64,000 bases of DNA from [Clostridium] celerecrescens 18A (GTDB taxonomy: Bacteria > Bacillota > Clostridia > Lachnospirales > Lachnospiraceae): the NCBI RefSeq assembly GCF_002797975.1, contig NZ_PGET01000001.1:1426001-1490000 (forward strand), in the 5' to 3' direction. The notes below the pieces were generated by a model. It was not told the DNA's origin and did no database searches. It was given only the letters and a program-made list of their open reading frames with translations. Shown here one piece after another: positions 48,365 to 51,862 of this stretch. Both the position numbers and the translations under genes were made by a program. Each line of letters starts with the position of its first letter. Positions within the stretch are counted from its first letter, which is position 1.

Positions 48365-48450
48365 AGTGCCACTTTAAGCCTCCTGAATAATCTGTACAGA
48401 AAGCTGTTTTAATGCTAAAATAACCTTAGAAAATGTTGGAGGGAAAATGG

Positions 48451-50433
48451 ATGGCATTATATGATTACGTAGGGGCGTTAAAGCGGGGCCGAAGGCGATA
48501 TCAGGCTTCTGTGTCAAAGGGAGAATATCCGTATCTGCCGGTCCTGGATCAGATCCTGTCTTATACGGATATTGTTTCAGAAGTGAATTTGGGAATCATG
48601 GATATTCCTCTGGAAAAGGTGGTGGGTACGAAAACGGAGGGACGCACCAGCGCCTTTGCCAGTAATTTCATGCCTCTATTGTCGGAGAAATCGGAATTTG
48701 GGGCGAAATGGGCATATTTATATGACCATCAGATTGAAGAGGGGATCCATGATCCTATTGAAGTCTTTGAATTTATGAACCAGTATTATGTTCAGGAAGG
48801 CAATAAAAGGGTCAGCGTCTTAAAATATGTTGGTGCTTTCAGCATCTCTGCCTCTGTAACCCGCCTGATTCCAAAGAGGACTGATGATTTAGATAACAGG
48901 CTTTACTATGAATTCCTGGATTTTTACCAGGTTTCCTTTAACTGTGATGTCTGGTTTAGTAAAGAAGGGAGCTACGACAAGCTGATAAAGGCAATGAATA
49001 AGAATCCGGGAGAGCCTTGGAGTGAGGATGACAGGATCATCTTCAAATCCGCTTATGACCGTTTTTCCAAAGCATTCCATGCCTTTGGCGGCGATGATTA
49101 CGATATGACGTGTTCGGATGCGTTCCTTGTTTACGTGGAACTGTTCGGATACCGAATCGTGAAAGACCGGATTGAAGGGCAGATAAAAAAGGACTTGGTC
49201 AGAATGAAGGATGAACTGCTCCTGGCCTCCAGAGGCAATAAGATCACTTTGGTTGAACAGCCGGAAGAAATAGAGGAATCATCGGACAATAGCCCCCTTA
49301 AGCTCATTAATTGGCTGCGCCCGTTCCAGTCCATTGAACCGGAGATGCTAAAGATTGCATTTATCCATGCAAAAACAGCAGAAACTTCCAGCTGGGCTTA
49401 TGGGCATGAGCTGGGCAGGATGTATTTAGAGCAGGCTTTTAACGGAGCCGTACAAACGGTTGCATTTTTTAATGCAGATTCTGAGCAGGAGATCGCTAAT
49501 GCCATTGAACTGGCCATTGGGGCCAGGTGCAACGTAATATTTACTACGGCCTCCCAGATGATCAATTTAAGTGTGAAGGCTGCAATCGATCATCCGGAAG
49601 TAAAGGTGTTCAACTGTTCCGTTAATATGTCCTATTCTTCCATCTGTACCTATTATGGAAGAATGTATGAATCGAAATTCCTAATGGGCGCTTTGGCAGC
49701 TTCCATGTCCCAGGCCGAGAAGATCGGATATATTGCTGATTATCCGATCTACGGCACCATTGCTAATATCAATGCCTTTGCCCTGGGAGCCAGAATGATC
49801 AATCCTTATGCCAAGGTGTACTTAGAATGGTCAAGGGTAAAGGACCGTGATGCTCACGCGGAGTTGGAAAAAGAGAAGGTCACCTTTATTTCAGGTGATG
49901 ACATGATAACTCCTCAGACGCCCACCAGAGAATATGGACTTTACCAGAAGAACCCTGATGGAACCCTGAAAAATCTGGCGACTCCTATCTGGCATTGGGG
50001 AAAGTTTTACGAAAGAATTGTTAATATTATATGCCATGGAGATTTCGGCAGGAAGGAAATGAAAGGGAAACAGGCCATCAATTACTGGTGGGGGATGTCG
50101 GCAGATGTGATCGATGTCATTTGCTCTCATAATCTGCCTCACGGAACCAGCCGGTTAATTACACTTTTGAGGAATTCCATACGGGCTGGAAGCTTTCAGC
50201 CTTTTGAAGGAACCATTTATTCTCAGGACGGACAAATCCAGTGCAGGGAAAACGAAAGTCTTACTCCGGAAGATATAACTACCATGAACTGGCTGACAGA
50301 AAATGTCGTAGGACAGATTCCGGAATTTGATGAGCTTACGGAAGAGGCTCGGTCTCTGGTACGTCTCCAGGGACAGACAATATACGAGAACATGGATATG
50401 GAGGAACAGCGTGAAGATCCTGGTACTGTCTGA
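48451..50433 (+). CDS. cytosolic ParB-like/BMP-family fusion protein
   Basis: A 660-residue protein with no signal peptide or lipobox. Residues about 100-150 look like a ParB/sulfiredoxin-type nucleotide-binding motif (QEGNKRVSVLKYVGA, Glu at 116). Residues about 300-590 are a BMP-family (PnrA/Med type) substrate-binding fold (LKIAFIHAKTAETSSWAYGHE, EKIGYIADYPIYGTIANINAFALGA). BMP proteins are normally surface lipoproteins binding nucleosides, so a cytosolic copy suggests a sensor, as with the Med regulator. ATG 48451 follows GGAGGG. The next gene overlaps its end by 23 bases. Confidence 0.75.
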   Translation: MALYDYVGALKRGRRRYQASVSKGEYPYLPVLDQILSYTDIVSEVNLGIMDIPLEKVVGTKTEGRTSAFASNFMPLLSEKSEFGAKWAYLYDHQIEEGIHDPIEVFEFMNQYYVQEGNKRVSVLKYVGAFSISASVTRLIPKRTDDLDNRLYYEFLDFYQVSFNCDVWFSKEGSYDKLIKAMNKNPGEPWSEDDRIIFKSAYDRFSKAFHAFGGDDYDMTCSDAFLVYVELFGYRIVKDRIEGQIKKDLVRMKDELLLASRGNKITLVEQPEEIEESSDNSPLKLINWLRPFQSIEPEMLKIAFIHAKTAETSSWAYGHELGRMYLEQAFNGAVQTVAFFNADSEQEIANAIELAIGARCNVIFTTASQMINLSVKAAIDHPEVKVFNCSVNMSYSSICTYYGRMYESKFLMGALAASMSQAEKIGYIADYPIYGTIANINAFALGARMINPYAKVYLEWSRVKDRDAHAELEKEKVTFISGDDMITPQTPTREYGLYQKNPDGTLKNLATPIWHWGKFYERIVNIICHGDFGRKEMKGKQAINYWWGMSADVIDVICSHNLPHGTSRLITLLRNSIRAGSFQPFEGTIYSQDGQIQCRENESLTPEDITTMNWLTENVVGQIPEFDELTEEARSLVRLQGQTIYENMDMEEQREDPGTV

Positions 50434-51016
50434 CCATGAGTCAAAATCACTTTATGAATACTATTCACCGGAAAAATTGCAGGATATTGATCTAATTATT
50501 TCCTGTGGAGATCTACGAGCGAATTATCTTACGTTTTTTGCAACATTTTCCCATGCCCCGGTCTATTATGTCCGGGGAAACCACGATTGCAGGTATGAGG
50601 AATGCCCACCTGAAGGATGTACCTGCATTGAAGATGATATCATAACCTACAAGGGAATCCGGATTATGGGCCTGGGCGGTTCCATGCAGTATATTCCAGG
50701 CTCACCGAACCAGTATACGGAACGGGGAATGGAGCGGAGAATCAAAAAGATGTGGTGGAAGCTTAAGAAGAACAAAGGTTTTGATATTCTTGTCACCCAT
50801 GCTCCGGCATTTGAACTCAACGACTTACCCGATCTGCCTCACCAGGGATTTACCTGTTTTAAAGCACTGATGGACAAGTATTCTCCCAAATATTTTCTTC
50901 ATGGACATGTCCATGCCAATTATGGTAAGAGTTTTAAGAGGGAAGACCAGTATGGCTGTACAAAGGTCGTAAATGCCTATGAGTATTATATTATAGAGTA
51001 TCCGGGGAATCCGTAA
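50411..51016 (+). CDS. metallophosphoesterase
   Basis: A 201-residue calcineurin-like phosphoesterase. Motifs: CGDLR (metal-bridging Asp), VRGNHD, VTHAP and HGHVHA. The first motif, usually D-x-H, reads SDHES, so Glu replaces the usual His, as I recall from related clostridial proteins with SDEES. It may act on cyclic nucleotides or other phosphodiesters. The start is GTG 50411, inside the preceding gene and behind GGAGGAA, so the two are translationally coupled. Confidence 0.85.
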   Translation: MKILVLSDHESKSLYEYYSPEKLQDIDLIISCGDLRANYLTFFATFSHAPVYYVRGNHDCRYEECPPEGCTCIEDDIITYKGIRIMGLGGSMQYIPGSPNQYTERGMERRIKKMWWKLKKNKGFDILVTHAPAFELNDLPDLPHQGFTCFKALMDKYSPKYFLHGHVHANYGKSFKREDQYGCTKVVNAYEYYIIEYPGNP

Positions 51017-51213: not shown

Positions 51214-51258
51214 AAAGAGGTCTGCGTTGATAAGACGCGGGCCTCTTTGCTTTATTTT
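51214..51258 (+). terminator. terminator before ilvN
   Basis: AAAGAGGTCTGCGT pairs with ACGCGGGCCTCTTT, then TGCTTTATTTTT. It lies upstream of the ilvN promoter, so it closes the phosphoesterase unit rather than acting as an ilv attenuator. Confidence 0.8.
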
Positions 51259-51300: not shown

Positions 51301-51329
51301 TTGACAAAAAGATGCTGGATTGTTATCAT
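51301..51329 (+). promoter_or_regulatory. promoter of ilvN
   Basis: TTGACA (51301-51306), 17-base spacer, TATCAT (51324-51329). Confidence 0.75.
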
Positions 51330-51361
51330 TTAAGTTACTATACAAAAAGGCGGGGATATGG

Positions 51362-51862
51362 ATGGAGAGAATCGTATTATCATTGTTGGTTGATAACACC
51401 TCCGGCGTTTTGAGCCGTGTAGCCGGACTGTTCAGCCGCCGTGGCTATAATATTGAAAGCCTTACGGTGGGTGTGACTGCGGATGAGAGATATTCCAGAA
51501 TGACGGTGGTGTCCACAGGCGATCAGGAGATTTTAGACCAAATTGAAAAACAGCTGAGAAAGCTGGAAGATGTCAGGGATATCAAAGAATTAAAGCCAGG
51601 TCATTCTGTTTACAGGGAGCTTATACTGGTCAAGGTGCATGCGAATGCCAGCCAGCGTCAGGCGATTTGTGCCATAGCTGATATTTTCAGAGCCACCATT
51701 GTTGATGTTGGCAAAGATTCCGTAACCGTCATGCTTACAGGAGATCAGTCCAAGCTTGATGCAGTTCTTAACCTGCTTGAAGATTATGAAATATTAGAGC
51801 TTGCCAGAACTGGTCTCACAGGACTTTCCAGAGGCTCTGACGATATTCGGTATCTGCCTTAG
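51362..51862 (+). CDS. ilvN: acetolactate synthase small (regulatory) subunit
   Basis: A 166-residue regulatory subunit with an N-terminal ACT domain (SLLVDNTSGVLSRVAGLFSRRGYNIESL) and the C-terminal ALS_ss_C domain (LVKVHANASQRQAICAIADIF). It gives valine feedback control to the catalytic subunit, whose gene (ilvB) is not adjacent. ATG 51362 lies after AGGCGGGG. ilvC follows after 111 bases that contain a GCC-rich hairpin but no terminator. Also called ilvH in some genomes. Confidence 0.93.
   Translation: MERIVLSLLVDNTSGVLSRVAGLFSRRGYNIESLTVGVTADERYSRMTVVSTGDQEILDQIEKQLRKLEDVRDIKELKPGHSVYRELILVKVHANASQRQAICAIADIFRATIVDVGKDSVTVMLTGDQSKLDAVLNLLEDYEILELARTGLTGLSRGSDDIRYLP

Follow-up and report, generated by a model that had tools for sequence, protein, structure and literature searches.

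A cytosolic ParB-like/BMP fusion protein and its overlapping phosphoesterase gene in [Clostridium] celerecrescens 18A: a possible intracellular regulatory module

The ParB-CTPase fold is a newly recognised class of nucleoside triphosphate (NTP) switch, and fusions of this fold to other domains are already known as a class. According to a survey of the fold (PMC12704722, main text), the sequence GxxR constitutes the Box II P motif, whose role is described there. The BMP-type protein AtzT binds guanine through Ser97, the backbone of Phe98, Glu165, Asn218 and Asn220, with Tyr45 and Trp194 on either side (PMC6834077, in part). YmdB, a metal-dependent phosphodiesterase, has an iron site composed of Asp8, Glu39, Asn40, Asn67, His150, His175 and His177 (PMC10406935, in part). 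Here, we describe a gene pair of [Clostridium] celerecrescens 18A (Lachnospiraceae) in which a ParB-like domain, a BMP domain and a calcineurin-like phosphoesterase come together. It lies in a stretch of 64,000 nucleotides (contig NZ_PGET01000001.1, positions 1,426,001 to 1,490,000, forward strand), referred to below as the window; its main features, in window positions, are as follows.

48451..50433, plus strand: gene A, ParB-like/BMP fusion protein (protein A), 660 amino acids (aa)
50411..51016, plus strand: gene B, metallophosphoesterase (protein B), 201 aa, GTG start within gene A
50411..50433, plus strand: overlap of gene A and gene B, 23 nucleotides
48580..48873, plus strand: ParB/sulfiredoxin-fold domain, about residues 44-141 of protein A
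48799..48810, plus strand: G-N-K-R (GxxR, Box II P motif), residues 117-120 of protein A
48874..49239, plus strand: helical extension, residues 142-263 of protein A
49240..49350, plus strand: linker, residues 264-300 of protein A, low-confidence model (predicted local distance difference test score, pLDDT, under 50)
49324..50322, plus strand: BMP domain, residues 292-624 of protein A
50429..50443, plus strand: motif I of protein B, S-D-H-E-S, with Asp8 retained and Glu at residue 10 in place of the canonical His

We propose, with confidence just short of even, that genes A and B encode one intracellular regulatory module consisting of an NTP switch, a sensor domain and a phosphoesterase output. 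We infer these roles because the C-terminal domain changes among relatives, whereas the two other parts, the ParB-like domain and the phosphoesterase, are kept together. The original prediction, made from the letters of the window, had pointed to a fusion gene with an overlapping phosphoesterase gene and had named conservation of the pair as a check; the overlap is real and the pairing is conserved. Among the relatives, of which the best 80 of 251 were kept, the phosphoesterase gene lies directly behind the fusion gene in all 80 loci. The two genes overlap in 41 of 81 rows (these relatives and the own genome), gene B starts being read from the alignment, where 10 of the 81 have an aligned first codon other than ATG, GTG or TTG. 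Neighbouring genes were called with a greedy open reading frame (ORF) picker, which found gene B in 74 of 79 loci (locus L026 is absent from the set) and missed the phosphoesterases of loci L160 and L192, which a separate search recovered. The protein nearest to that of gene A among the relatives listed is from L. celerecrescens (Lacrimispora, Lachnospiraceae), with 95% identity.

On a wider scale, fusion matches under 1e-70 are present in 126 of 298 Lachnospiraceae genomes searched (hand count, some matches partial), about two fifths of the genomes from a major gut family. In a 120-genome set, the phosphoesterase matches under 1e-50 in 47 genomes (65 genomes have no match, 20 of them named); 45 of the 47 also lay in the 298-genome search, and all 45 have the fusion there. 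There are two exceptions: G092 carries fusion and phosphoesterase on different contigs, and G052 gives no ParB-like match but has a phosphoesterase fragment close to the end of a contig. Genome G004 has, on contig C25, a second fusion and phosphoesterase in fragments, separate from the contig of its long pair.

Across the phylum, 398 genomes were searched with profiles of both proteins; the phosphoesterase profile matches 26 and the ParB-like profile 27, with both present in 25 genomes, the phosphoesterase only in G298 and the ParB-like protein only in G556 and G607 (Fisher p 3e-36, with kinship not corrected for, the 25 genomes coming from 14 families). Chance or artefact as the source of the pairing is rejected on this co-occurrence and on the adjacency in the kept loci. 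The genes are adjacent in 21 of the 25 genomes, as five BMP fusions, 14 pairs with the phosphoesterase before the ParB-like gene and two pairs in the reverse order. Of the 14 phosphoesterase-first pairs, 13 have a ParB-like protein with 4 to 10 cysteines in its last 95 residues, the other (L162) being unreadable; when three cysteine-rich ParB-like proteins were run against Pfam, L116 and L117 reached a Fer4 cut-off and L112, with 4 Cys, did not, and we infer a putative 4Fe-4S-type tail for the remaining ones. The last four genomes encode a small ParB-like protein (125-169 aa) away from the phosphoesterase gene. A forward test gave the same picture: five further genomes with small ParB-like proteins all hold the phosphoesterase, on other contigs, and it was not found in two same-family control genomes (2 of the 52 without the ParB-like domain). 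The C-terminal domain varies (cysteine-rich 4Fe-4S-type, none, BMP or other), and the ParB-like domain and the phosphoesterase remain in the same genomes; the pairing predates the fusion. In trees of both proteins, built from 28 chosen rows, the 15 fusion-type rows form one clade (support 98/99 and 100/100), consistent with the BMP domain having been captured once.

Two gene neighbourhoods recur. In two genomes of one genus (f13; L160:5618-7546(-) and L161:2939-4822(+)) an adenine deaminase gene stands directly before the phosphoesterase (Adenine_deam_C, E about 3e-65), a hint at purine metabolism. In three genomes of family f19 (L116:3310-4029(-), L166:6791-7474(+) and L167:6973-7815(+)) the gene after the phosphoesterase/ParB pair is of the SIR2 family.

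Actinomycetota and Fusobacteriota were viewed through plasmid records, 6 of 16 matching records being examined, and in four of the six a ParB-like gene adjoins the phosphoesterase. In Collinsella aerofaciens (Actinomycetota) and in Subdoligranulum (Bacillota) the adjoining gene is a fusion; the Collinsella record (NZ_OY725717.1, L189, 'plasmid 6') also carries tuf, rplA, rplK and nusG close to the pair and resembles a piece of chromosome. Cetobacterium (Fusobacteriota) has the phosphoesterase followed by a 562-aa ParB-like protein (L190:4606-6294(+)), whose C-terminal ~300 residues have no Pfam match over cut-off and may be a C-terminal domain of a fourth kind. In Tsukamurella (Actinomycetota) the gene after the phosphoesterase encodes 288 aa and is annotated 'chromosome partitioning protein ParB'. 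The Tsukamurella pair (L193) sits between ugpC-type sugar ABC (ATP-binding cassette) transport genes and an alpha-amylase-family gene, and the Cetobacterium pair comes after glycogen phosphorylase; a carbohydrate link is possible. A whole pair, its fusion being a 641-aa ParB-like protein, is also present on a fecal scaffold (MT836456.1, L192:1630-4248(+)) labelled 'UNVERIFIED: Bacteriophage sp.', possibly bacterial DNA rather than phage. Two records break the pairing rule: around the Paenibacillus and Brevibacillus plasmid phosphoesterases (L194:2501-3097(+) and L195:2501-3100(+); 25-28% identity) the 5.6 kb covered contain no ParB-like gene, and the motif I of these proteins, D-L-Q, likewise is without the His. 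Because of these two our confidence in the module was lowered slightly, from even to just below it.

Structure prediction and structural comparison place a ParB/sulfiredoxin fold at about residues 44-141 of protein A (the original prediction had suggested comparing residues 80-160 with ParB), and residues 1-263 are modelled confidently as a folded, non-membrane part. G117 and R120 of the Box II P motif are invariant in 38 of 38 rows of the protein A alignment, which takes in eight standalone proteins picked by similarity to the window protein and not by neighbourhood; the rows of this alignment and of that of protein B include duplicate loci from the same genomes. Because of the fold and the conserved GxxR, the domain is read as a putative NTP-binding switch. 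Pfam gives no match of PF02195 (ParB_N) to the window protein at E<=1, and no match of any kind in its N-terminal part; in two standalone relatives PF02195 scores E 0.016 and 0.013, below its cut-off. No helix-turn-helix (HTH) was detected by Pfam in the window protein, residues 142-263 gave weak structural matches only, and parA is absent among the named window neighbours (rnr, smpB, the phosphoesterase, ilvN and ilvC). The ParB-like domain might instead phosphorylate a small metabolite, as SerK and SbnI do with serine, the phosphoesterase removing the phosphate and the C-terminal domain tuning the cycle. Glu30 of SerK is catalytic, and no acidic residue is conserved in residues 57-75, the loop where its counterpart is expected (placed by aligned ranges). 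This counts against the kinase/phosphatase cycle, which is the main rival and is considered unlikely.

The BMP domain is complete: residues 292-624 align to chain residues 17-354 of the 355 of AtzT (6pi5), and the domain also aligns full length to the Brucella protein 3s99. A Collinsella relative of protein A (WP_320677882.1) is annotated 'BMP family ABC transporter substrate-binding protein', so that protein A might be an ordinary BMP solute-binding protein whose export signal was overlooked. However, the gene A ORF encodes no hydrophobic stretch (maximum 19-residue hydropathy 1.14), its product has no detectable signal peptide or lipobox, and residues 1-263 form the folded part described above. 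The genome holds eight Bmp matches, and the seven others begin with a hydrophobic signal and lipobox and each adjoin a frame in which an ABC-ATPase-like P loop was recognised by eye, whereas no ABC transporter gene is among the named window neighbours of gene A. An exported transporter subunit is accordingly rejected, its probability being close to negligible, and the fusion is cytosolic, as had been proposed; the transporter annotation of the relative hides a likely intracellular regulator.

It had further been proposed that the BMP domain binds a nucleoside. AtzT residues were mapped by hand from alignments of the window protein, and comparison was made with 26 non-fused BMP proteins found in 32 loci; 19 of these 26 proteins show a lipobox by simple pattern. 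In these the counterpart of Ser97 is Ser in 25, that of Phe98 is Phe in 24 and that of Glu165 is Glu in 24. In 92 fusions, by contrast, the Ser97 counterpart is Ala in 67 and Ser in 10, the Phe98 counterpart is Pro, Ser or Thr in 78, and the Glu165 counterpart is Gly in 89; the window protein has Ala367 and Gly435 at the Ser97 and Glu165 positions (mapped by hand). The stacking aromatic is kept as Trp in 92 of 92 fusions (Trp315 in the window protein). Trp194, Asn218 and Asn220 were mapped but left out of account, since the non-fused relatives do not conserve these either, as were Thr139 and Asn169 (Lys and Asn in fusions, Arg and Gly in non-fused proteins). A purine or nucleoside ligand inherited from AtzT-like proteins is rejected on these replacements; judged by its residues, the fusion pocket appears conserved in its own way and not as a purine site of known kind.

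Protein B has a calcineurin-like phosphoesterase fold. Motifs II-V (GD, GNHD, H and GHxH) are present in 131 of 131 rows of an alignment that takes in the phosphoesterases neighbouring the eight standalone ParB-like proteins; the Cetobacterium relative, outside these rows, has GNHI in place of GNHD. The change in the first metal motif, noticed originally in the window, is clade-wide: in the D-x-H of motif I, Asp is kept in 131 of 131 rows and His in none, with Glu, Lys, Val, Ile or Arg in its place. Given this loss, protein B could be a pseudo-enzyme or a scaffold: it would hold a phosphorylated ligand or a metal and support the ParB-like protein structurally. Nine residues (Asp8, Asp34, Asn57, His58, Asp59, His130, His164, His166 and His168) are nevertheless invariant in the same rows, which would be needless in a dead enzyme, and the iron site of YmdB, a metal-dependent phosphodiesterase, is likewise without a His following the motif-I Asp (PMC10406935, in part); a pseudo-enzyme is quite unlikely.

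A role in phage defence or self-protection was considered as well; the ParB-like protein would then detect the invader, and the phosphoesterase would break down a signal or a nucleic acid. The PADLOC model PDC-S10 matches the phosphoesterase (E 3.7e-19, residues 1-189), and PD-Lambda-5_A matches the ParB part weakly (0.0023). However, PADLOC sets no curated cut-off for PDC-S10, and the term was not found in the part of the matching literature examined; the model may describe a wider phosphoesterase family rather than a defence gene. The strong fusion matches in so many Lachnospiraceae genomes, the single fusion clade and the window neighbours rnr, smpB, ilvN and ilvC argue against it too, and we regard a defence module as very unlikely, although no search aimed at defence islands was made.

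Within the window, smpB lies directly upstream of gene A, and the pair could act in RNA decay or ribosome rescue along with rnr-smpB, a context to which the original prediction had drawn attention. Among the nearer relatives, only 17 of 79 loci have smpB among the five genes upstream, and only 13 of 79 have rnr there (some loci end early). The association is local, a functional tie is rejected, and this explanation is highly improbable. Candidate transcription signals flank the pair:

48393..48421, plus strand: weak promoter-like site, 9 of 12 matches, TG preceding the second hexamer
51214..51248, plus strand: terminator-like stem of 15 pairs, 3' of gene B

The first is graded weak because the region has fewer such sites (4) than its shuffles (mean 8.0). 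A strong promoter-like site (51301-51329, 11 of 12 matches, TG preceding the second hexamer) stands just before the gene at 51320-51862, beside ilvC.

In the proposed regulatory module, protein A would use its ParB/sulfiredoxin-fold domain as an NTP-dependent switch, and the BMP domain, a captured solute-binding-protein fold that is now cytosolic, would sense a small molecule; in cysteine-rich relatives the variable domain possibly senses redox or iron state. Protein B would be the dedicated partner and output, a calcineurin-like phosphoesterase with a metal site minus the motif-I His and with presumed activity. Ligand and NTP state of protein A would set the activity of protein B, or its access to substrate, by direct contact. 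The original interpretation, an intracellular nucleoside or nucleotide sensor beside ribosome-rescue genes, thus survives in part: the cytosolic fusion, the ParB fold, the pairing and the metal-motif change stand, while the nucleoside or purine ligand and the rnr-smpB link do not. None of the findings that it had named as refuting (no ParB-like fold, no conserved pairing, an upstream export signal) was observed.

More tentatively, the pairs may represent a new signalling architecture in Bacillota_A, Actinomycetota and Fusobacteriota, in which an NTP switch of the ParB fold carries an interchangeable sensor module (a 4Fe-4S-type tail, the captured BMP domain or others) and has its own phosphoesterase lacking the motif-I His, and sensor input decides the cleavage of a nucleotide-like signal or phospho-metabolite. 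The ParB-CTPase fold would thereby be extended to a branch that PF02195 misses in the window protein and gain a conserved enzyme partner, and the natural exchange of C-terminal domains makes ligand, switch and output separately testable. A literature search, with most subscription journals outside its reach, returned no description of this fusion or gene pair.

How, then, does the pair compare with known systems? Protein A has the fold and GxxR in common with the ParB-CTPase fold superfamily (ParB, Noc, sulfiredoxin, SerK and SbnI), and differs in having no Pfam ParB match, no recognised HTH and, unlike the canonical ParB of ParABS, no parA neighbour in the window. A term search of the main text of the fold survey (PMC12704722) found neither a BMP or 4Fe-4S-type-tail fusion nor the pairing with a phosphoesterase. 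Protein B is ~20% identical to calcineurin-like phosphoesterases of the MPPED2 / aq_1956 / TT1561 group and differs from them in the absence of the motif-I His from all 131 rows; it resembles the PADLOC candidate PDC-S10 by profile only. YmdB is not known to have a ParB-like partner. The listed iron site of YmdB shares the missing His after the motif-I Asp, a comparison by site description alone (PMC10406935, in part). With the BMP/PnrA solute-binding proteins (AtzT, Brucella 3s99), protein A shares the full-length domain alignment and the stacking aromatic; unlike them it is cytosolic, fused and without an ABC partner beside it in the window, and unlike AtzT the fusions mostly replace the purine-contact residues Ser97 and Glu165 by Ala and Gly.
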